Positions 4,139 through 39,968 of a stretch of 64,000 bases of DNA are shown one piece after another (the stretch's first letter is position 1; every line of letters begins with the position of its first letter). Where the stretch lies: the NCBI GenBank assembly GCA_902774145.1, contig CACYHC010000015.1:1-64000 (forward strand). The letters run 5' to 3'. The notes under the pieces were generated by a model. It did not search any database. It was not told the DNA's origin and saw nothing but the letters and a program-made list of their open reading frames with translations. A program made the position numbers and the translations under genes. This DNA comes from an uncultured Bacteroidia bacterium. GTDB taxonomy: Bacteria > Bacteroidota > Bacteroidia > Bacteroidales > UBA932.

Positions 4139-6110
4139 CCTTGCAGTATTTGGAGATGACACGGTAGGCCTCGGCAACGCCGAGTTCCCCGGCGCGGGAG
4201 AGGTCGATACAGCCCTTTTCGCGGTCTTTGAGGAAAATCAGCACGAGCCCGCGGTTGTAGTAGGCGTCACCCATTCCGGGGTAGAGTTGCACCGCTTTGT
4301 CGTAACTGGAAACCGCTTCCACCAGTTCCGAGGAGAGGCACTGCAGGTTTCCGAGATTGAAATACAGGTAGGGGAGGTCCGGCAGCAGGGCGATGGCTTC
4401 GCGCAGGTCCGCCACGGCGTCGGAGTAATCGTAATGGTGGATGCGGCTGTCGCTGAGCCGGGCACGGGTGTTCCCCTGGTCGTCCATCGAGATGGTCTGT
4501 ACGTTTTTCTCAATCGAGGCGATAAAGTCGATCATCTCCGCCTTGAGCGTGGCCCGGTTCATCAGGTAAAACGCTTTGTACCAGCGCGAATAGCGGTTGC
4601 GTTCCGTCTCGCTGTCCGCGAGCGCCACGGCCCGGTTGAAGTAGTCGAGCGCCCGGTTGAACTGCTTTTCCCGAATCTGCAGCAAGCCGCGTACAAACGC
4701 GGTGCGGGCGGCGTCGCCCTCTTCGCCGGCGCTGAAAGCGGATGCGGAGGGCAATTCTTCTCCGCCGATGCTCAGGGGAACGCTGCCCTCGGCGAGGAAA
4801 CGGTCCAGCAGGGCGTTTTCGTAGCGGCCGCTGAGGATGTTCGCGTTCTGCGCGGAAGCGTCCGTCCGGATGCGGTAGAGCGGCTTGAGGTTGATGTCGA
4901 CGACCCGGTGCTGGAGCATCTCGTCGTTGAAGTCCTTGCGGGCGAATTCTGCATCGAGCGCCAGCAGGGCGTTGAACTTCGCGCTGGTGTCGGCGAGCGC
5001 CCCGCTGCCGCCCTTTTCGCGGTATTCGCGCACCTTGCGGCGGGCCGTCTCGTAGTCGGCCTTGGACTGCTGCTTGCGCCCCAGCAGGTTGTTGACATAG
5101 GCGCGGTTCATATAGGCCTTGGCGAAGTCCGGATAGAGGTCGATCGCGCTGTCGTAGTCTTCGAGTGCGGCCCGGTAGCGGCCCAGTTCGATGTAGTAGG
5201 CCGCCCGGTTGAAATGGGCGAGCACGTTGTCGGGATTGATGCTGAGCACCCGGTCCATGTCTTCGAGCGCCTTGTCCCATTCGCCCACCTGTGCGTAAAT
5301 CAGGCTGCGGTTGTAGAGCGTCAGGGCGTTGCCGGGTTCCTGGGCGAGGATGGCGTTGAAGTCCGCCATCGCCGCCTTGTAGTCCTTCTTTTCATAGAAG
5401 AGGATGGCGCGGTTGAAGCGGGCGAGGGTGCTGGTGCTGTCCAGGTCGATGGCCTTGTTCATATCCTCCATCGCCGCGGCGGTGTCCCCGCGCATGGCCT
5501 GCAGCGAGCCCCGTCGGATGTAGGATTCGGACTCGAAGCGGTCCAGGGCGACGGCTTTGTTGTAGTCGGTCATCGCCTTGAGCGTGTCGCCGAGGAACAG
5601 GTGGCAGGCTCCGCGGTTCAGGTAGGCGCTTGCGTCCTGCGGCTCCTTGAGAATGAAGCGGTCGAAATCCAGCACGGCGTCGTCGAAGCGGCGTGCCAGG
5701 AAATAGGTGACGCCGCGGCTGTAGTAGAGCCCGCTGAAGCCCGGACGCAGGTTGATGGCCGTTTCGAGGTCGCTCAGGGCGCTGTCATAATCGCCGGAGC
5801 GGCTGTAGGTGATGGCGCGGTAGTGGTAGCCGTTGGTAAAGACGGGGTTAATGCGCACGGAGGTGTTGAAATCCCGCTGCGCGCCCCGGATGTCGCCCAG
5901 ATTGTATTTGGCGATGCCCCGCCAGAAGAAACTCCAGTAATCAGTGGAATCCAGGTGGGTGAGGATGTTGAAATTCTCGATGGCCTTGGCGTACTTGCCC
6001 TCGGACAGGGCGTTGCGGCCCCGCCAGGAAAAGACGTCCTTGTCCCACTGGGAGAAACACAGCGTCCCGGTGAAAAGCAAAAACGATATTGCCAAAAGCG
6101 CTTTTTTCAC
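4131..6110 (-). CDS. Secreted TPR-repeat protein
   Basis: About 659 aa. A signal peptide (KKALLAISFLLFTGTLCFS) is followed by roughly nine consecutive tetratricopeptide repeats (to about residue 350), a less repetitive linker, and two or three more TPRs near the C-terminus. It is likely a periplasmic or outer-membrane-associated scaffold. I chose the GTG at 6110. The longer ATG at 6131 would place a -7 box (TATCTTTG, minus strand 6126-6119) inside the coding sequence, while the GTG gives a standard signal peptide directly after that box. Partners are unknown. Confidence 0.75.
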   Translation of the reverse strand: MKKALLAISFLLFTGTLCFSQWDKDVFSWRGRNALSEGKYAKAIENFNILTHLDSTDYWSFFWRGIAKYNLGDIRGAQRDFNTSVRINPVFTNGYHYRAITYSRSGDYDSALSDLETAINLRPGFSGLYYSRGVTYFLARRFDDAVLDFDRFILKEPQDASAYLNRGACHLFLGDTLKAMTDYNKAVALDRFESESYIRRGSLQAMRGDTAAAMEDMNKAIDLDSTSTLARFNRAILFYEKKDYKAAMADFNAILAQEPGNALTLYNRSLIYAQVGEWDKALEDMDRVLSINPDNVLAHFNRAAYYIELGRYRAALEDYDSAIDLYPDFAKAYMNRAYVNNLLGRKQQSKADYETARRKVREYREKGGSGALADTSAKFNALLALDAEFARKDFNDEMLQHRVVDINLKPLYRIRTDASAQNANILSGRYENALLDRFLAEGSVPLSIGGEELPSASAFSAGEEGDAARTAFVRGLLQIREKQFNRALDYFNRAVALADSETERNRYSRWYKAFYLMNRATLKAEMIDFIASIEKNVQTISMDDQGNTRARLSDSRIHHYDYSDAVADLREAIALLPDLPYLYFNLGNLQCLSSELVEAVSSYDKAVQLYPGMGDAYYNRGLVLIFLKDREKGCIDLSRAGELGVAEAYRVISKYCKDE

Positions 6111-6126
6111 TAATTTTGCAAAGATA
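6111..6126. promoter_or_regulatory. Abutting divergent -7 boxes (TPR / M28 genes)
   Basis: TAATTTTG on the plus strand (6111-6118) and TATCTTTG on the minus strand (6126-6119) lie directly against each other. The plus box serves the M28 homologue (GTG at 6137) and the minus box serves the TPR gene (GTG at 6110). Both fit TAnnTTTG exactly. Confidence 0.55.
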
Positions 6127-6136
6127 AACATTTATC

Positions 6137-7027
6137 GTGCCGATTCTAAAAAAACTCGTCGCAATTTTGCTTCTGTCGCTGCCGGTGCCGCCACTCTTTG
6201 CGCGCGCCGATGCGGAGGCGTCCCTGCGCGAGGATGTGGAAATGCTCTGTTCGGAGGCCTTCGGCGGCCGCAGTTTCCGTAACGGCGGTACCGTGCTTCC
6301 GTCGATGATGCTGGCGCGCCGCTTTGCGGAAGCGGGCCTGTCGGCGCCGCTCGCGGGCCGCTTCCAGTGTTTTCGCGACGAACAGGGGCGCTGCGGCCGC
6401 AATGTCGTCGGCGTCCTGAAGGGGAGAAGCGCGGAGGAAATCGTAATCGGCGCGTACTACGACGGTCTGGGCACCCTCGACGGCCGCCTGTACCCCTGCG
6501 CCGATGCCAATGCGTCCGGGGTGGCGATGCTCCTGCTGCTGGCGCAGCAGCTCGCATCGGGGCCCCGGCCGCCCAAAACCCTGGTGTTCGTGGCCTTTGA
6601 CGCGCACCACGCGGGCTGTGCCGGCGCATCGGCGTTCCTGGCCCTGTGGCCGCGCAACCCGGTCCTGATGTTGAACCTCGACACGGTGGGCAGCGCCCTT
6701 GCCCCGGTCAGGCGGGCGGTGCCCGATTACCTGATCGCCCTGGGCGGGGAGCGCTGGAAAGCCTCCCTGGAGGCCGCCGCCGCACCCCGGGGCCTTACCT
6801 TATATTATGATTATTACGGCAGCCGGGCGTTTACGGAGATGTTTTACCGGGCGAGCGGAGAACAAAAACCTTTTCTGGAGGCCGGCGTTCCCAGCGTGAT
6901 GTTCACTTCGGGCATCACCTTCCACACCAACCGCGTGACGGATGCGCCCTCTACGCTGGATTATCCGCTGCTGCGGCGACGGACGGCCCTCCTCGCGGCC
7001 TGGCTCAAAAACTGGACGGGAAAATGA
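6137..7027 (+). CDS. Peptidase M28-family homologue with altered metal site
   Basis: A 296-aa protein with a signal peptide (about residues 1-22) and an M28 aminopeptidase fold, starting at GTG. The fold motifs are recognisable, but key residues differ. The first zinc His is Tyr107 (AYYDG where AHYDH is usual), and the catalytic/ligand Glu-Glu pair is His157-His158 (FDAHHAG). Asp123 (CADANASG), Asp182 (LNLD) and a C-terminal FHTN His remain. It may be inactive or have a changed function. Its stop overlaps the next gene in an ATGA. Confidence 0.75.
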   Translation: MPILKKLVAILLLSLPVPPLFARADAEASLREDVEMLCSEAFGGRSFRNGGTVLPSMMLARRFAEAGLSAPLAGRFQCFRDEQGRCGRNVVGVLKGRSAEEIVIGAYYDGLGTLDGRLYPCADANASGVAMLLLLAQQLASGPRPPKTLVFVAFDAHHAGCAGASAFLALWPRNPVLMLNLDTVGSALAPVRRAVPDYLIALGGERWKASLEAAAAPRGLTLYYDYYGSRAFTEMFYRASGEQKPFLEAGVPSVMFTSGITFHTNRVTDAPSTLDYPLLRRRTALLAAWLKNWTGK

Positions 7028-8062: not shown

Positions 8063-10463
8063 CGAGAATCGCTTGCAGTGAATCCAGGTCCGGGACCAGT
8101 ACCTGCCGGGGTTTCGAACCTTCCTGCGGTCCTACGATGCCCGCGGCTTCCAGCTGGTCCATTACACGGCCTGCCTTTGCATAACCCATGCCTAACTTGC
8201 GCTGGAGGTCCGAAGTGGAGCCGCGCTGCGTGGTGACAATCATCTTTGCCGCTTCCTCGAAGCGGTCGTCCACTTCGCGCATATCGATGGAAACGCCGCC
8301 CGCCTCGCCGCTGCCGTCATTGACTTCCGGCAGGTAGTAAGGCGTATTGTAGCTGCGTCCATAGCCTTTTTGCGCGCCGATGAAGGCCGTAATCTTCTCG
8401 GTCTCCTCGCCGCTGATGAAGGCGCACTGCAGGCGCTCGTTGTCGATACCGGCGGAAAGCAGCATATCTCCGCGGCCGATGAGTTTTTCGGCGCCGGGCG
8501 CGTCCAGGATGGTCTGCGAGTCGATGCGGGAGGCCACGCGGAACGCGATGCGCAACGGGAAGTTCGCCTTGATCTGTCCGGAAATGACGTCCACCGAGGG
8601 GCGCTGGGTGGCGAGGATGACGTGCAGGCCCGCCGCGCGGCCCTTCTGGGCCAGACGGATGATCGAGTTGATGATGCTCCTGCTCGATGCGCGGGCTTCC
8701 GCGGAACCGCCGGCGGACATCGTCAGGTCCGCGAACTCGTCCACGATGGTGACGATGTAGGGGAGGAAGCGGTGTCCTTCGTCGGAACGCAGGTGGTGGG
8801 CCTTGTATTTCTCGTTGTAAAGGGTAATCTTGTTGACGCCCGCCAGGCTCAGGAGCTGGTAGCGTTCATCCATTTCCACGCAGAGGGAACGCAGGACTTT
8901 TTCCGCGTCCTTGGGGTTCTTGACAATGGCCTTGTTGACCTCGTCCGCCTCGGAATTTTCCGGCATTACGGCCAGGTAGTGGTGCAGCAGGTCGCCGTAG
9001 GCGGAGAATTCCACCATCTTCGGGTCGATGAAGACGAACTTCAGCTCGGAGGGGTGCTTGCTGTAGAGCAGGGAAGCCACCAGGACGTTCAGTCCTACGG
9101 ATTTTCCCTGTTTGGTGGCGCCGGCAATCAGCAGGTGCGGCGCTTCCGCCAGGTCGAAGACATTGACTTTCTGTTGAATCGTGTAGCCGATGGCGACGGG
9201 CAATTCCGCCTTGGTCTTGCGGAAGGCGTCGTCATTGAGCATCGACTTGAGCGCCACGGTGGCGGCGTGGTCGTTGGCGACCTCGATGCCCACCGAATCC
9301 GGCAGGGCGATCACGCGCACGCCCTTGGCGTTCATATTCATCGCAATGTCTTCCTGGAGCCGTTTGATATCGGCGATGCGCACGCCAGGCGCGGGATAGA
9401 CCTTATAGAGGGTGACCGTCGGTCCGACGACCGCCTTGACGTCCGAAATCTGAATCTTGTAGTTGGCCAGGGCTGTGCGGATACGGTTGTTGTTGCGGTT
9501 CAGTTCCTCGTCGGAGACTTCCCGGTTGCCGCTGTTGTAACTTTCCAGCAGGTCCAGTCCGGGGAACTTGTACTTGGGCAGGCCGTCCGGCGGGTCCAGC
9601 CGGTTGTCGATGGGCTTGAGAGGTTCGTGGACTTCTTTTTCCAGGTCGTCGGTACGGATGGCCTCGAATGAGCCTTCGGCCGGATCCGCCTGGATTTCCT
9701 CGTCCGCACTTTCGGGTTCGGGCTCCTGTTCCGGCTCGGGTTCAACCTCGGGTTCCGGTTCGGGTTCCGGCTCTTCGTCCTGCGCTTCGGAGAAGGCCTC
9801 ACGGGCCGCCCGGCGCTGTTCGCGCCGCTCGGCGCGCGCCGCTTTGCGCCGCTCCTTCTCCTCGCGCAGCGCCTCCTCTTCCTCCGCGCTGCGGGGTTTG
9901 CCGATGCCGCCCAGCCAGCGGTTGAACGCGTTGCTGCAGAAGAACAGGACACAGGCGACGAGCAGGGCGATTACCACGCCGGTGATGATATCTCCCATCA
10001 GGTGGGTGAACGCCGCCACGACGCTGGCGCCGCAGGCCCCGCCCAGGCCATAGCCCAGGGCCCCGCCCAGACCGGCCAGTTTGCCGGCGTAGGCCAGCAC
10101 AAGGCTGGCTACGAAGGCGCCGGCCAGGGAAACCAGGGCGCTTTTTAGCAGCGAGGGCTCCCATTTTTCCAAGAAGAAACGGCAGAACAGGGAAAGGGGA
10201 ATGACCAGGAGCAGAAAGGCTCCCGGACCGAAGCAGCGGCCGACAAACAGCCAGGCGGCCCACCAGCCGAACTTGCCGGCGGTGTTGTGTACCGCCGCCA
10301 TTTTCTCCCCGCTGTCCAGCAGGCTCATATCCGCCTTCCAGGTAAACAGGTAGGAAAGAAACGCCGTGAATAAAAACAGCGTCAGGGCGCCGAAGCAGAG
10401 TCCGGCGATTTTGCGCGCGGCTTCCCTGCGCTCGTCATCCCAGTTGTCCCAGAAAAATCTCAT
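8046..10463 (-). CDS. ftsK: DNA translocase FtsK/SpoIIIE
   Basis: An 805-aa septal DNA pump for chromosome segregation. The N-terminus has four membrane segments, then a charged linker with a run of Glu-Pro repeats (about residues 225-260). The RecA-like motor has Walker A GATKQGKS near residue 450, and Walker B lies near IVDEFADL. The C-terminal winged-helix gamma domain (RGSTSDLQRKLGMGYAKAGR) reads DNA polarity signals. The 5' end overlaps the DUF4290 gene by 4 nt. Confidence 0.95.
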   Translation of the reverse strand: MRFFWDNWDDERREAARKIAGLCFGALTLFLFTAFLSYLFTWKADMSLLDSGEKMAAVHNTAGKFGWWAAWLFVGRCFGPGAFLLLVIPLSLFCRFFLEKWEPSLLKSALVSLAGAFVASLVLAYAGKLAGLGGALGYGLGGACGASVVAAFTHLMGDIITGVVIALLVACVLFFCSNAFNRWLGGIGKPRSAEEEEALREEKERRKAARAERREQRRAAREAFSEAQDEEPEPEPEPEVEPEPEQEPEPESADEEIQADPAEGSFEAIRTDDLEKEVHEPLKPIDNRLDPPDGLPKYKFPGLDLLESYNSGNREVSDEELNRNNNRIRTALANYKIQISDVKAVVGPTVTLYKVYPAPGVRIADIKRLQEDIAMNMNAKGVRVIALPDSVGIEVANDHAATVALKSMLNDDAFRKTKAELPVAIGYTIQQKVNVFDLAEAPHLLIAGATKQGKSVGLNVLVASLLYSKHPSELKFVFIDPKMVEFSAYGDLLHHYLAVMPENSEADEVNKAIVKNPKDAEKVLRSLCVEMDERYQLLSLAGVNKITLYNEKYKAHHLRSDEGHRFLPYIVTIVDEFADLTMSAGGSAEARASSRSIINSIIRLAQKGRAAGLHVILATQRPSVDVISGQIKANFPLRIAFRVASRIDSQTILDAPGAEKLIGRGDMLLSAGIDNERLQCAFISGEETEKITAFIGAQKGYGRSYNTPYYLPEVNDGSGEAGGVSIDMREVDDRFEEAAKMIVTTQRGSTSDLQRKLGMGYAKAGRVMDQLEAAGIVGPQEGSKPRQVLVPDLDSLQAILDAYKH

Positions 10464-11110
10464 TTCTTGCGGCCCTTGAATTTTTTGCGGGAATCGCGGT
10501 TGCCTTTCCCAAATCCGTTGTTCATCCCCAGGTTGGGACGGGAGAAACTGGCGTCGGCGGCAATCTTGTCCAGGGTCATTCCCTCGGGAACCTTGAGCCG
10601 TCCGCCGGCCAGCTTTTCAATGTCGTTGAATATGGTCTCGTCCGCGACGCTGTCCTTGTTCCAGATCAGGTACTGCTGGCGCATATAGACCGCCAGGGCG
10701 CGGATCAGGCTGGTCTTCACCTCGCCCTCCGGCTCTTCGCAGATCAGGTCGATGATTTTTTCGATGTTGCGTCCGTAATGTGCGGCACGGATGCGCGTGT
10801 CCTTCATCGGAAGGGGAACGGGACGGGTGGTGAACTGGACCTCCTCCGGTGCAGGCCAGGGGGAGTCGATGTCCAGATCCGGACCGGCCATCAGGTAGAG
10901 ATGGTCCCAGAGTTTGTGCTCGAAGCTTTCCTTGTCCTGGCTGTGCGACTGGGCGCAGAGAATGGCCATCGCACGGACAATCGCCGCCGCCTGCGCGCTG
11001 CGTTTTTCGCGGTCTTCGATGTCCTTCAGGCCCTCCGCCATTTCCAGGATATAGCGGCCGTATTCGGGCATCTTGATCGGTTCTTTTTCGGTATTGTAAT
11101 AGAGTTTCAT
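10460..11110 (-). CDS. DUF4290 family protein
   Basis: A 216-aa soluble protein, mostly helical. The start (MKLYYNTEKEPIKMPEYGR) and the Lys/Arg-rich C-terminal tail (about 190-216) match the Bacteroidetes-restricted DUF4290 family. Function is unknown; the basic tail may bind nucleic acid (inference). It is coupled by a 4-nt overlap to ftsK. A TATCTTTG -7 box on the minus strand (11139-11132) lies about 21 nt before the ATG. Confidence 0.8.
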   Translation of the reverse strand: MKLYYNTEKEPIKMPEYGRYILEMAEGLKDIEDREKRSAQAAAIVRAMAILCAQSHSQDKESFEHKLWDHLYLMAGPDLDIDSPWPAPEEVQFTTRPVPLPMKDTRIRAAHYGRNIEKIIDLICEEPEGEVKTSLIRALAVYMRQQYLIWNKDSVADETIFNDIEKLAGGRLKVPEGMTLDKIAADASFSRPNLGMNNGFGKGNRDSRKKFKGRKK

Positions 11111-34899: not shown

Positions 34900-34940
34900 T
34901 CACGTTGCAATCCCGTCTGGTCAGCCTGCGAGCCCAGGCA

Positions 34941-35041
34941 GGGCACGATTTTTCGAAATTTTGGCCGTTTTTGAGCAAAAATCTGCCCCGGCGGGCACAT
35001 TTTTCCGCAAAATCAAGGGTTTTTGAGCAAAAACCTGCCCC
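34941..35041 (+). repeat. 101-bp REP-like dimer, copy 1
   Basis: Two 49-bp units (34941-34989 and 34993-35041) joined by GGC. Each starts GGGCAC, ends CTGCCCC and contains GTTTTTGAGCAAAAA. Unit 1 can pair GGGCA with TGCCC and GATTTTT with AAAAATC, giving a 12-bp stem with one bulged base. It lies between murF and the RAYT-like gene. It is identical to copy 2 at 100 of 101 positions. Confidence 0.92.
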
Positions 35042-35159
35042 CTATGACAGGACACGCTAAAGTCCATCAGCATATTCCGGATTCAAAAAATGTGAAGACG
35101 GAGTGCAAATAGTCGTTGGAAAATATTTTCAACGGCACATTATGCCCCATCTTTGCATT

Positions 35160-36074
35160 ATGAGAAAATTACGGAAGATTTGTCAAGCGTATCGGGCGCT
35201 CCCCATCGGCTATTATCACTTGTGCACGGATGGGTGGAAAGAGGGGGTATTGTTCAACAACGACCATCAGTATGTCGCCGGCGTGACGAGTATTGCATTG
35301 ATGAAGTTGAAATACAATGTCGAAATTTATGCTTATGTCTTGATGCCCAATCACGTGCATATCATATTATCGGGGACTGGAAGCGATTGTACGGACGCTT
35401 TCAAACTATTGGTTCGCAGATGTTCCCTGATGCGCAAAAAGGCCGGGGCTCCCCCCATCCCGAAAGATTATGGATTCAAATTGATTCCTATTGATACCCC
35501 GGAATCGTTTCGTTCCCATATCCTTTATGTCGCGCGAAACCCATACGAAAAAGGACTGAGCGTTCCTGGCGGATATCTTTGGGGAAGTGACCACCTCTTG
35601 TTTAACCCGCACGGAGAAAGAATCCGGGGAATTAGGGCGGACTCGATAGCAATGAATGAGATTTTGCGTATTGCGGAATGTCCGGACAAACTCCCGGGCC
35701 ACTGGGAAATTCATCCGGAGTTCGGCATTCTGCCCCGGAATTTTGTGAAGACGGACAAAGTGAAGGCGCTGTTCCGTACGCCAAAGAATTTTGTCACAAG
35801 ACTGGTGAAGGACTATGAAACGCTGCTGCATATTTCGTCTGACTTAAAGGATGAGATAATGCTCAGCGATATGGAGATTGACGATATATTCTACCTTCAG
35901 ATTCGAAAGATGTTTCCTGGAAAGACGTTATACAACTTGAGCATCGAAGAAAAATATCGTTTGGCTAAGCATTTAAAAGAACAATTTCCCATTGAACCCG
36001 CTGAACTGGCTGTTCGCCTAAAGCTGAGTGAGCGCACCGTCAACCAGGCCCTTAATGCCAAGGAACACTGGTAG
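35160..36074 (+). CDS. RAYT-like Y1 (HUH) transposase
   Basis: A 304-aa REP-associated tyrosine transposase-like protein of the Y1/IS200 superfamily. The metal-binding HUH motif is H65-V-H67 in YVLMPNHVHIIL, and the candidate nucleophile is Tyr123 in YVARNP. The C-terminal ~80 residues include an HTH-like segment (ELAVRLKLSERTVNQAL) unusual for short IS200 TnpA. RAYTs are single-copy genes that work on nearby hairpin repeats, and such a repeat dimer lies 118 bp upstream. Its base composition is AT-richer than the neighbours. A near -7 box (CATCTTTG, 35148-35155) supports ATG 35160. Confidence 0.85.
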   Translation: MRKLRKICQAYRALPIGYYHLCTDGWKEGVLFNNDHQYVAGVTSIALMKLKYNVEIYAYVLMPNHVHIILSGTGSDCTDAFKLLVRRCSLMRKKAGAPPIPKDYGFKLIPIDTPESFRSHILYVARNPYEKGLSVPGGYLWGSDHLLFNPHGERIRGIRADSIAMNEILRIAECPDKLPGHWEIHPEFGILPRNFVKTDKVKALFRTPKNFVTRLVKDYETLLHISSDLKDEIMLSDMEIDDIFYLQIRKMFPGKTLYNLSIEEKYRLAKHLKEQFPIEPAELAVRLKLSERTVNQALNAKEHW

Positions 36075-36115
36075 CCCCTCCATTGAAATATTTTTTCTAA
36101 CTTCGCGGGAATGGT

Positions 36116-36820
36116 ATGAATCCTCTGATGACAGAAATGCTTTCCCAAGCCGACGCTGTACAGGCAGTCGGTCTTTCTCGCTTCTTCAAAACCGGCCTTG
36201 GACAGTATGGAGAGGGAGACCGGTTTCTGGGAATCAAAGTCCCTGTGACGCGGAAAATCGTTGAACGGCATTGGCGCAATATCGGATTTCACGAATTGGA
36301 AGAATGCCTTGCCAGTGATTATCACGAGATTCGCCTGGCCGGTCTCCTCGCCCTGGTCAGGATTTTTGCTCACGCCCGGACAATCCATGAGCGGAAACGG
36401 GACTGCGTTGCTTTTTATCTGTCACACACAGACCGCATCAATAATTGGGACCTGGTGGATTTATCGTGCTACTCACTGCTGGGAGAATGGCTGCTGGACA
36501 AGGATCGGACTATCCTGTATGATCTGGCCCGTAGCGGGAAAACGATCTGGGAACAGCGTATCGGTATTGTCAGTACGATGGCATTCCTGCGGCACGGTCA
36601 ATGGGAGGATACTTTTTCTATCGCCGACCTCTTGTTGCATCATCCGCACGATTTGATCCAAAAGGCCGTCGGCTGGCTGCTGCGCGAAGCCGGAAAACGA
36701 AACAAGACGGCACTGACCGCCTATCTGCTTCCACGATCTCGTGAAATGCCCCGCACGATGCTCCGTTACGCTATTGAAAAATATCCGGAAGATGAGCGCC
36801 GAAAGTTTCTACAGCGTTGA
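36116..36820 (+). CDS. AlkD-like DNA alkylation repair protein
   Basis: A 234-aa HEAT-like-repeat protein of the AlkC/AlkD DNA glycosylase family. GLGQYGEGDRFLGIKVPVTR, INNWDLVDLS and LIQKAVGWLLREAGKR are hallmark segments; the Asp of NNWDLVD is the expected catalytic residue. It would excise alkylated bases without base flipping. It follows the RAYT gene by 41 bp, shares its AT-richer composition, and ends just before the second repeat dimer. A near -7 box TAACTTCG is at 36098-36105. Confidence 0.9.
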   Translation: MNPLMTEMLSQADAVQAVGLSRFFKTGLGQYGEGDRFLGIKVPVTRKIVERHWRNIGFHELEECLASDYHEIRLAGLLALVRIFAHARTIHERKRDCVAFYLSHTDRINNWDLVDLSCYSLLGEWLLDKDRTILYDLARSGKTIWEQRIGIVSTMAFLRHGQWEDTFSIADLLLHHPHDLIQKAVGWLLREAGKRNKTALTAYLLPRSREMPRTMLRYAIEKYPEDERRKFLQR

Positions 36821-36832
36821 GCTAGGAGCGCA

Positions 36833-36933
36833 GGGCACGATTTTTCGAAATTTTGGCCGTTTTTGAGCAAAAATCTGCCCCGGCGGGCACATTTTTCCGC
36901 AAAATCAAGGGTTTTTGAGCAAAAACCGGCCCC
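36833..36933 (+). repeat. 101-bp REP-like dimer, copy 2
   Basis: Same two-unit structure and orientation as copy 1 (units 36833-36881 and 36885-36933). It differs only by one T-to-G change in the last CTGCCCC. It lies between the 3' ends of alkD-like and adk. Copies 1 and 2 bracket the RAYT-alkD pair as direct repeats. Confidence 0.92.
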
Positions 36934-36947
36934 CTACACAAAAACAG

Positions 36948-37520
36948 TTAGAGCGACGAGACGAGGGCGTCGATGCGGGCGGAGACTTCGGTGACGGAGC
37001 CCTCGCCGGAAATTTCGTGGTAGAGGCCGCGCTCCCGGTAGAACTGGATGAGCGGTTCGGTCTTCTGGTGGTAGGTGCGGATACGGTTGGCGATAATGCT
37101 GTCATCGGCATCGTCAGCGCGGTTCTCCAGCATCGCGCGGTGCTTGATGCGCTGATAAATCAGTTCGTCCGGGATATGCAGCGACAACACGGCGGTTACC
37201 CGTTCGCCCGCTTTCCCCAGCCGTTTTTCCAGGGCTTGCGCCTGCTCCAGGGTACGCGGGAAACCGTCCAGCAGAAAGCCGTCCACGCCCTTTGCGGCAT
37301 CGAAAGTGGAAAAGAGCATATCTTCCACCACCTGGTCAGGCACGAAATTGCCCTTGTCAATGAGTTCCTCTGCAATCTTTCCCAGCGGCGTACCTGCGGC
37401 AATCTCATGGCGGAGCATATCGCCGGTAGAGATGTGCAACAAATTGTATTTCTGAGACATCGGCTCAGCCTGCGTGCCTTTTCCCGCACCGGGAGGGCCA
37501 AATATAATATAGTATTTCAT
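36948..37520 (-). CDS. adk: Adenylate kinase
   Basis: A 190-aa adenylate kinase (ATP + AMP to 2 ADP). The P-loop GPPGAGKGT is at residues 8-16, the AMP-binding region is STGDMLR and GFPRTLEQA, and the Arg-rich catalytic part is NRADDADDSIIANRIRTY. The LID is the short form without a zinc finger. The ATG overlaps the hpt stop in an ATGA. Confidence 0.95.
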   Translation of the reverse strand: MKYYIIFGPPGAGKGTQAEPMSQKYNLLHISTGDMLRHEIAAGTPLGKIAEELIDKGNFVPDQVVEDMLFSTFDAAKGVDGFLLDGFPRTLEQAQALEKRLGKAGERVTAVLSLHIPDELIYQRIKHRAMLENRADDADDSIIANRIRTYHQKTEPLIQFYRERGLYHEISGEGSVTEVSARIDALVSSL

Positions 37521-38062
37521 TGCTGGTCAAGTGCGTAAATGTCCTTGTAATTGCGGCCGATACCGTCGTAATCCAGCCCGAAACCCACGATGAAGCGGTT
37601 GGGAATTTCCATTCCTACATAATCGAGCTTTACATCCTTTTTATAAACCTCGGGTTTGAGCAACATCGTGCAGACCTTATAATCCGCCGCCTTGATTTCT
37701 TTCATATAATCACTCAGCGCGACGATGGTGTTGCCTGTATCGACGATGTCTTCCACCACGATGACCCGCCTGCCGGAAAGGTCCGAGGTCGGCCCCAGCA
37801 GATTGCGGACGACACCCGTCGAAATCGTCCCGGAGTAGGAGGACAACTTCATGGAAACCAACTCGCAGTTGAACTCCAGGCGTTTCATCAGTTCGGCGGT
37901 AAACAGCACCGAGCCGTTGAGAATGCAGAGGATGACGGGAATATCCGTGGAATCCTTGAAATCCGCGTTGATTTTGTCCGCTACGCCGTCAATCGCTTCA
38001 CTGATTCGGTCATAGGGAATAAACAAGCGGAACGTTTTGTCGTAAAGCTTGATTTTATCCAT
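37517..38062 (-). CDS. hpt: Hypoxanthine phosphoribosyltransferase
   Basis: A 181-aa purine-salvage enzyme that uses PRPP to make IMP/GMP. The PRPP loop VVEDIVDTGNT and the C-terminal NRFIVGFGLDYDGIGRN motif fit Hpt. ATG 38062 fits the family. A -7 box TAAATTTG on the minus strand (38093-38086) lies 23 nt before it. It is coupled to adk by a 4-nt overlap. Confidence 0.93.
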   Translation of the reverse strand: MDKIKLYDKTFRLFIPYDRISEAIDGVADKINADFKDSTDIPVILCILNGSVLFTAELMKRLEFNCELVSMKLSSYSGTISTGVVRNLLGPTSDLSGRRVIVVEDIVDTGNTIVALSDYMKEIKAADYKVCTMLLKPEVYKKDVKLDYVGMEIPNRFIVGFGLDYDGIGRNYKDIYALDQQ

Positions 38063-38181
38063 TTCCAACCAACAATTTCGGAGGCCAAATTTACAAAAAA
38101 AACATTCGAAAAATCGTAAAAAAATGTCAATAAAAGATAAAAACGTCATTTTTTTACAAGATTGTATCCGAAATTGCGGCC

Positions 38182-39837
38182 ATGAGACGGTTGATCAGCC
38201 TGATGGAAGCCATTCTACTGCTCACGGGAGCCCTCGGCGAAGAAGAACTGGAAGAGAGTATCGTGGAGCGTTTCGAGCGCTATGTGAGCGCTCCGCTGCA
38301 CCTCAATACGGCGGGGCGGACCCGTCTGCTGGAAAGCAGCCTGCTGAGCGAATACCAGGTTGCCGTGTTGCTTGATCACAGGCAGCGTTCCGGCACAATC
38401 CGTTCGTATACGGAACTGGCGCTGCTGGACGGATTCGGCGAACGGACAGCGGAAGCGCTCCGGTATTTTACGACGCTGGAAGACGAGGTCGTCCGCAGCG
38501 GGACCGTCCGGGGAGAGGCGCTGCTCCGGGGTTCCCTACGGGCGCGTGACGGTACGGTCCAGGGTGCAGGCGGAGCGAAGGTTTACCTGGAACTTCCGGA
38601 GCGTGCCGGTATCTTCTGGGGCTCCCGCTATGCCTACGGCGACAAACGCTTTTCTCCGGGCAGTTTCAGCGCCGAGTACCGCGCCAGGAACGGTCGCTGG
38701 AAATTGCTGGCCGGCGATTATCATGCCCGCTTCGGGCAGGGGCTCTGCTGCTGGAGCGGTTTTTCCCTGAGCGGCTTCGGGACGACGGGCGCCTTCGGAC
38801 GGCAGGCGCAGGGCGTCACGGCCTCCCACTCGTTTTCCGCCGCTTTGCGCGGGGCGGCGGCGAGCGGGGACATCGGGCCGGTCAGCCTGAGCGGCGGCGT
38901 GTTCATCGACGGGCTACGGGAACGGATGGATGGAAAATCCGGCGCAAAAATCGGCCTGGGCTATTGCGCAAATGCCGTTTATCGCTGGCGATGGGGGCAC
39001 GCGGGACTGAGTGCCGCAGGGTTAAGCGGACTTCCCGCGCTCTCGACGGACTGGCGCATCGGCGGACACGGACTGTCCTGGAGTGGAGAAGCCGCGTGGG
39101 ATTTCGCCGGTAAAGATATCGCCGCGTATACGTCCCTGCTCTGGAAGCCGCGCTATGGCCTGGAAGCGGCGATGAACCTTCGTTATTACGGTAAGGAATA
39201 CCGCAGTCCGGCTTCCGGGGCGCCGCGTGCATCCGGCAGTGCCAATCGCGACGAAGCCGGGGGCGCGGTCGCTCTCGGTACGAAGTGGGGTTCAATAAGT
39301 TACGACCTCTGCACAAAGCCATCGACGGGTGGCCTGGGGCACAAGGCCGTACTGACGGCAACGCACGGATGGCTGGTGGGACCGGTGACGCTGAAGCCCG
39401 CGTTACGTGCGGTACTTTCACATCGCAGCTGGAACGGCATCCCCTTGCGGACGGACCTTCGCGGAGATATCGGCGCGTCTTATGGAAAATGGGCGCTGAA
39501 CCTGCGCTACAACACGGTTTTTTGCCGGGAACGATCCTGGCTGGCGTACGCGGAAACGGGATATGACGGAAGTTGGCTGCGCTTTGCCCTTTTCAAAATC
39601 GACAACTGGGACGACCGGATTTACGTTTATGAGCGCGACCTGCGCGGCTCCTTCAGCGTGCCGGCCTACTATGGCCGGGGCTGGAGTCTTTCGCTGAGCA
39701 GCAACCAGACGCTCCGGGGCGGGCGGCTTACCCATAAATTCGGCCTGCGTGCTTCCTATATATATTATTATCCCTCAGGCGCCGGGCGCAGCAGTGTCCT
39801 CGAAGCAAAACTGCAATACAGCATCGCGTTCCGATAA
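38182..39837 (+). CDS. Helix-hairpin-helix / outer-membrane barrel protein
   Basis: A 551-aa protein of the common Bacteroidetes ComEA-type HhH family. The N-terminal part has two HhH-like segments (LHLNTAGRTRLLESSLLSEYQVAVLL and LALLDGFGERTAEALRYF, about 38-95). It is followed by a long Gly/aromatic-rich region of alternating strands, probably an outer-membrane barrel. A short N-terminal hydrophobic stretch may be a signal peptide. Function unknown. The third repeat copy follows 14 bp after its stop. Confidence 0.72.
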   Translation: MRRLISLMEAILLLTGALGEEELEESIVERFERYVSAPLHLNTAGRTRLLESSLLSEYQVAVLLDHRQRSGTIRSYTELALLDGFGERTAEALRYFTTLEDEVVRSGTVRGEALLRGSLRARDGTVQGAGGAKVYLELPERAGIFWGSRYAYGDKRFSPGSFSAEYRARNGRWKLLAGDYHARFGQGLCCWSGFSLSGFGTTGAFGRQAQGVTASHSFSAALRGAAASGDIGPVSLSGGVFIDGLRERMDGKSGAKIGLGYCANAVYRWRWGHAGLSAAGLSGLPALSTDWRIGGHGLSWSGEAAWDFAGKDIAAYTSLLWKPRYGLEAAMNLRYYGKEYRSPASGAPRASGSANRDEAGGAVALGTKWGSISYDLCTKPSTGGLGHKAVLTATHGWLVGPVTLKPALRAVLSHRSWNGIPLRTDLRGDIGASYGKWALNLRYNTVFCRERSWLAYAETGYDGSWLRFALFKIDNWDDRIYVYERDLRGSFSVPAYYGRGWSLSLSSNQTLRGGRLTHKFGLRASYIYYYPSGAGRSSVLEAKLQYSIAFR

Positions 39838-39839
39838 AT

Positions 39840-39968
39840 GATTGCCCAGCCGGGGCAGGTTTTTGCTCAAAAACCCTTGATTTTGCGGAAAAATGTGCCC
39901 GCCGGGGCAGATTTTTGCTCAAAAACGGCCAAAATTTTGAAAAATCGTGCCCCCCTGCGGGGGCAATC
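39840..39968. repeat. Inverted GATTGCCC ends bracketing copy 3
   Basis: GATTGCCC (39840-39847) and GGGCAATC (39961-39968) are perfect 8-bp inverted repeats on either side of the inverted repeat dimer. They lie between the HhH gene and the hydrogenase operon and may help form a terminator, or be element ends. Confidence 0.65.
39852..39952 (-). repeat. 101-bp REP-like dimer, copy 3 (inverted)
   Basis: Reverse-complement copy of the dimers at 34941 and 36833 (units at 39904-39952 and 39852-39900 on the minus strand). It differs from copy 1 by one G-to-A change in unit 1. It lies 3' of the HhH gene. All three copies sit just after gene ends. Confidence 0.92.

Follow-up and report, generated by a model that had tools for sequence, protein, structure and literature searches.

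According to the available parts of the description by Nunvar 2010 (PMC2817692), RAYTs are flanked by two inverted REPs, and REPs usually exceed 100 copies per genome. The survey by Quentin 2018 (PMC6006769), in the parts available, describes a Bacteroidetes subclass of TnpAREP, subclass 2.6 (Bertels group 5), with a length of 179 aa and the motif YIH[QN]NP, flanked by atypical, weaker secondary structures that are copied elsewhere in the genome and lack the GT[AG]G tag; subclasses 2.1 and 2.3 are not flanked by REP-like structures. The same text cites an uncharacterised host-benefiting function for the upkeep of RAYTs. On the question of what bacteria gain from RAYTs, the strong physical link between one RAYT clade and a glycosylase gene described below gives a testable partner.

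The locus lies in a stretch of 64,000 nucleotides (the window) of contig CACYHC010000015.1, from an uncultured Bacteroidia bacterium (assembly GCA_902774145.1). A gene for a RAYT-like HUH protein of 304 aa with a C-terminal helix-turn-helix-like end occupies 35160..36074 on the forward strand; the open reading frame (35103-36074) opens with GTG, and the ATG at 35160 is the likelier start, judged by eye from the paralogue. The RAYT-type HUH identity given in the original prediction is upheld by the HUH motif NHVH and by YVARNP, which follows the Y---NP signature of TnpAREP as given in the available text of PMC6006769, with profile scores that stay under their cut-offs: NCBIfam REP_Tyr_transpos matched at E 1.1e-7 with 31.8 bits, short of its cut-off of 80, and Pfam Y1_Tnp reached E 0.009 and a score of 16.6, under its cut-off of 23. 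The Y1_Tnp cut-off is passed by the RAYT of a genus relative (locus L311, score 27). HTH_11 matched the C-terminal end at E 0.14 only, and a single-sequence structure prediction of the protein was poor (pLDDT 46.4, pTM 0.30). The PDB entry 2xm3, named transposase, which we take to be ISDra2 TnpA, gave a weak match (E 0.71) with NHVH weakly aligned to its HVH stretch. The HUH motif and this match are the likeness to the Y1 TnpA of IS200/IS605. Unlike that family, the gene has one other match in its own genome, the two found at E <= 0.001 being paralogues 57% identical to each other, and its flanks are repeat pairs rather than IS ends; several near-identical copies of a whole element, as in IS200/IS605, were not found in this genome.

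Comparison with the REPtron, as the available parts of PMC2817692 and PMC6006769 present it, revealed a shared plan: an HUH protein with Y---NP, an own family of hairpin repeats, copies elsewhere in the genome, and different repeats for different RAYTs of one genome. However, the window repeats are direct, whereas Nunvar 2010 reported an inverted arrangement; they are about 100 nt long with two hairpin units each, no GT[AG]G tag was seen, the copies are few, and a gene is enclosed. With subclass 2.6, as far as the available text of PMC6006769 describes it, the locus shares its Bacteroidetes host and the atypical, weak flanking structures copied elsewhere, whereas its protein has 304 aa, YVARNP and an HTH-like end, and is in length closer to subclasses 2.1 and 2.3.

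The alkD gene (36116..36820, forward strand, 234 aa) runs in the same direction and begins 41 nt past the RAYT stop. Its assignment to the AlkD family, made earlier from the translation, was confirmed by Pfam PF08713 DNA_alkylation (E 1.3e-53) and by the WD(x)VD and GW(L/V)LRE stretches, which align with 3jxz and are the presumed site of the catalytic residues; PDB chains named AlkD matched at E about 1e-4. The product is thus a predicted DNA glycosylase of the AlkD family. The domain and the two stretches are shared with known AlkD, but the gene stands beside a RAYT and its repeats, and it is patchy and roaming in the genus. Both genes had been described as richer in AT than their surroundings. 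The GC contents of RAYT (0.467) and alkD (0.522) are below those of murF (0.592), adk (0.572) and the window (0.590), but the neighbour hpt is also low (0.500), so the statement holds for most neighbours rather than all. We consider the locus a variant of the RAYT/REPtron kind; among the matches listed in the open-licence literature searched, no report joining a RAYT with AlkD was found, and the alkD linkage in the genus described below is absent there.

The two near-identical direct repeats differing at one base that had been noted earlier were recovered, with a length of 107 nt rather than 101 bp. R1 (34938..35044, forward) lies upstream of the RAYT gene and R2 (36830..36936, forward), with 1 mismatch in 107 nt, starts 9 nt past the alkD stop. 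The genome search added a third copy absent from the earlier reading, R3 (39852..39952, reverse strand), which is inverted, lies before a nuoF-like gene and differs from R1 at 1 of 101 positions. Each repeat consists of two palindromes in tandem, one of about 49 nt and one of about 52 nt, that fold weakly, and no GT[AG]G tag was found by eye at the foot of either unit. The predicted 49-nt hairpin is present but weak: its DNA fold has -8.3 kcal/mol and a z of -1.55, and 17 of 200 shuffles folded equally well. A pattern of the 22-nt core (at most 3 mismatches) gave 6 matches in the window and a maximum of 0 across 100 shuffles; therefore, the repeat pattern exceeds chance. The draft genome (2.23 Mb, 76 contigs), in which copy numbers are lower bounds, holds three near-identical copies, all inside 5 kb at the locus, and four weaker matches elsewhere, compared with the more than 100 copies usual for REPs. 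Searching it for the pattern gave 10 sites, 6 of them within R1, R2 and R3. The repeats do not occur by the hundred genome-wide, an outcome that had been named as fatal to the cargo idea, and these copy and pattern counts rule out an abundant unrelated repeat family.

The unit had been read as a simple insertion between murF and adk. The two closest relatives found, both Bacteroidales MAGs (locus L269 in genome G233, and L270, from goat rumen), contain neither RAYT nor alkD nor any copy of the window repeat at this site, but their order is dut-murF-orf38182(-)-hpt(+)-adk(+), with nuoF next in L270. Compared with these, the window block adk(-)-hpt(-)-orf38182(+) at 36948..39837 is reversed and ends exactly at R2 and R3, which are mutually inverted. 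Because the reversal lies exactly between two inverted repeats, the repeats most likely drove this 3-kb inversion, and the simplest account would be inverted-repeat recombination once repeats had become established between murF and orf38182 and between adk and nuoF; the recombining pair may have been R2 x R3 or R1 x R3, which the few flanking bases do not tell apart. The locus is thereby a case of an inverted gene block with a short RAYT-type repeat at either end. By eye, an unrelated palindromic repeat directly follows adk in L269 (about 6570-6665), and the window has a repeat in the same gap.

Among 29 other murF loci, orf38182 lies on the opposite strand beside murF in 3 and adk lies beside murF in 1 (genome G009), while in 25 neither gene falls inside the fetched flank; RAYT or alkD was near murF in none of the 29 within that flank (mostly 1.5 kb). 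In genome G009 (loci L056 and L371) the order is murF-adk(-)-hpt(-)-orf38182(+), as in the window, with 2 nt between the aligned murF and adk ends, and both the unit and the window repeat are absent from the junction in the fetched span. A search for such junctions without the unit had been suggested as a check. They also indicate that the block can lie reversed without a repeat copy. The sites lacking the unit are too diverged from the window for base-exact ends, and no second genomic location of the same RAYT-alkD unit was found. Its absence in L269, L270 and G009, together with the low copy number of the repeats, makes the unit look like a derived insertion. The insertion part of the original prediction thus stands with regard to presence and absence, but not as a simple event between murF and adk, as in L269 and L270 orf38182(-) stands next to murF and adk comes last in the block, which in the window is inverted between R2 and R3.

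Lateral arrival of RAYT and alkD at this site is likely. The window shares 85-94% identity with L269 and L270 in dut, murF, hpt and adk and only 71-77% in orf38182. The genome of L270 contains no match to alkD or the window RAYT. The genome of L269 has an alkD 72% identical and a nearest RAYT 60% identical to the window's, both at other places; 157-nt repeats (98%) flank this RAYT, the gap between it and its 3' repeat contains no ORF of at least 80 aa, and the alkD adjoins a different RAYT. Because orf38182, a resident gene, is itself just 71-77% identical, an alkD at 72% is no proof of lateral origin. A plasmid or phage origin was considered and rejected, with no RAYT match in plasmids and alkD there at most 49.4% identical; the phage collection, searched with alkD, gave one match of 49.8% identity, and the one scan of viral contigs gave no RAYT relative.

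Repeat anatomy was compared over 83 RAYT loci. RAYT similarity supplied 80 of them, 79 from relatives and one being the paralogue in the window's own genome; two more had been retrieved on account of alkD, and the window completes the set. The best pair of repeats was direct with a tight 3' repeat at 33 loci, where this repeat starts at a median of 5 nt past the RAYT stop; it was inverted and tight at 7, direct with a wider gap at 5 and inverted with a wider gap at 2, and no pair was found at 36. The commonest anatomy is therefore a direct repeat-RAYT-repeat without cargo, and cargo is the exception. The clearest cargo variants among the five direct wider-gap loci are the window and the paralogue of its own genome (G000:C14:21826-24191, loci L033 and L131), where 108-nt direct repeats (97%) of another family flank the RAYT and enclose an HNH endonuclease-like gene. 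The repeat family of the paralogue has 19 genome matches including the two flanking copies, some of them near contig starts (C19, C20, C34). RAYT and alkD are enclosed together at three other loci: inside 91-nt inverted repeats (90%) in L311, with a YhfC-like gene inside 101-nt inverted repeats (98%) in L345, and by like repeats (91%) with three direct copies in L316.

Within the genus, alkD is distributed patchily, with a match at E <= 1e-80 in 161 of 400 genomes. A common neighbour no more than two genes away was seen in 52 of 1364 pairs of alkD genes at 65-85% identity, and pairs at least 85% identical had a common neighbour in 8 of 12 cases. In a first control, other genes at 60-85% identity shared a neighbour in 62-100% of pairs, a biased figure, as the fetched loci can be mutually orthologous; with orthologous locus pairs removed, the control gave 5 of 14 at 65-85% identity (3/5 and 2/9). 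The pairs in these comparisons are not independent. The neighbourhood of alkD changes from species to species.

Other loci with a RAYT beside AlkD, whose search had been suggested as a check, were found, strongly in one RAYT clade and weakly in the window's own. Of 80 alkD loci, 7 have a RAYT within 2 kb and 2 have one at 2-9.5 kb (the flank lengths behind this count include four extra loci). In a tree of 90 RAYT sequences, a ten-member clade, here called clade D, contains 7 of the 10 RAYTs that lie near alkD, and the window RAYT falls in another clade; at least 6 changes are needed to explain the alkD-near label. Using a clade-D RAYT as query, at least 21 of 150 among the matches listed, which reach beyond clade D, lay within 2.5 kb of a listed alkD, compared with 0.2 expected; the count is a minimum because only listed alkD rows were tallied. 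Of its top 60 matches, 36 were in genomes with a listed alkD, and at least 20 of these were near it. The window RAYT as query gave 2 of 116 among the matches listed, one being the window itself, with 0.155 expected. Comparison of the two queries therefore places the strong linkage in clade D; in the clade of the window RAYT the linkage with alkD is weak. Proximity of RAYT and alkD recurs in the genus above chance, and the linkage at the genus level is firm. The second pair from the window query is L214, which belongs to a clade of six RAYTs beside recA and is the sole one of the six with alkD in the fetched span, and hence looks like an alkD arriving at a resident RAYT. At one chromosomal site in two species, L311 has RAYT(-)-alkD(+) at 8600-10518 and L317 has alkD(-)-RAYT(+) at 5235-6829, as if the pair had been flipped.

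The original prediction took the locus for a 2-kb unit carrying AlkD as cargo. The apparent derived insertion and the above-chance proximity agree with this, but in the alkD tree the RAYT-linked genes are scattered (of the 80 rows, 6 are linked to clade-D RAYTs and 3 to other RAYTs). As this tree is also poorly resolved, joint movement of RAYT and alkD is not demonstrated, and we regard it as plausible. We propose, with a probability of about 0.5, that the locus is a REPtron-like unit, consisting of a RAYT with private, direct two-hairpin repeats of about 100 nt, that has picked up a roaming alkD. The alkD gene sits between the RAYT and the 3' repeat. In the proposed course of events, RAYT and alkD would both have reached the site laterally, and the RAYT would cut and rejoin single strands and so place copies of the repeat at the ends of genes. 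A circle of repeat, RAYT and alkD, or a repeat-adjacent gene, might then be taken up at a repeat already in place, either through the RAYT or through homologous recombination, leaving direct repeats, and recombination of inverted copies would flip the DNA between them. The alkD gene would thereby travel as a recurrent passenger. Such a direct, gene-enclosing anatomy could let a single-strand transposition machinery carry host genes.

A serious rival, possible though somewhat less than probable, is that RAYT units land, or survive, beside alkD without carrying it, alkD roaming by other means. The site shared by L311 and L317 (c3-c17) also holds alkD without RAYT in L320 and L348, which speaks for such landing, as do the scatter of RAYT-linked genes in the alkD tree and the arrangement of the pairs from the clade-D query, 16 of the 21 linked ones being head-to-head with the RAYT 5' of alkD. 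However, the closest relatives found have neither gene at the window's site, the three other loci hold both genes within like repeats, and L214 suggests the opposite order of arrival, an alkD joining a resident RAYT of the recA clade.

It is unlikely, although worth weighing, that RAYT and AlkD form a functional partnership, as the original prediction had suggested, in which the two proteins would cooperate (e.g. AlkD acting on lesions in exposed single strands) and selection would keep the link. The linkage with one RAYT clade and its preferred divergent arrangement fit a partnership, and other RAYTs of the genus stand beside recA, recJ, recG, radA, uvrA, a UvrB-type gene, mutS and gyrA/parC. 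However, most of the matches listed are without a listed alkD within 2.5 kb (129 of 150 for the clade-D query, 114 of 116 for the window query), and 73 of 80 alkD loci are without a RAYT within 2 kb.

Of these neighbours, recJ, gyrA/parC, recA, recG, radA and uvrA were named by NCBIfam (loci L222, L214/L240, L217, L153 and L221), and the UvrB-type gene and mutS by Pfam, placed by eye at L147 and L164. The six RAYTs beside recA belong to one clade, so this is a clade-level neighbourhood. With one RAYT locus taken per 50% cluster (28 clusters), the 54 nearest genes contained UvrB-type, MutS and UvrA Pfam models, with RadA as a fourth by NCBIfam. No such Pfam model was shown among 54 further-off genes (54 of 70 scanned, with Pfam only and one part with 25 of 27 families), where PHP and Ham1-like models were present. 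This occurrence of DNA-maintenance genes next to RAYTs was noticed after the fact and is no more than suggestive. A broader and doubtful idea would be that the RAYTs of this genus, far from being neutral relics, are kept next to genes of DNA maintenance, including alkD, with which one clade repeatedly forms something close to a module. They would pair functionally with these genes in single-strand DNA processing and repair, with the repeats serving as substrate and as portable recombination points that flip and shuffle gene blocks.

Still less credit goes to passive bracketing, according to which repeats gather at gene ends and enclose any neighbour of a RAYT by chance, alkD being nothing special. 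In L240, one of the wider-gap loci, inverted 93-nt repeats (97%) enclose a RAYT and a recA gene, so that bracketing alone is no proof of cargo, and control ORFs were bracketed in 7 of 359 cases, compared with 6 of 80 alkD loci, a modest difference. The simple form of the cargo claim is weakened at the same point: the repeats do bracket RAYT and alkD, but recA is bracketed as well, and alkD occurs with and without RAYT at one site. Against chance enclosure, the proximity to alkD of the RAYTs in the clade-D list is roughly a hundredfold over the random expectation. An old order murF-RAYT-alkD-adk, lost in relatives, for which nothing but the shared gene orientation of G009 was found, is contradicted by L269, L270 and G009, which are without the unit, by the 29 other murF loci with neither gene in the fetched flank (mostly 1.5 kb), and by repeats that differ by merely one base, and is very improbable.

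A second small gene was seen near alkD in varied contexts (L348 at 10204-10776, L121, L125 and others; cluster c1). It gave no NCBIfam match at E 1e-20, and by eye it resembles a uracil/mismatch DNA glycosylase.
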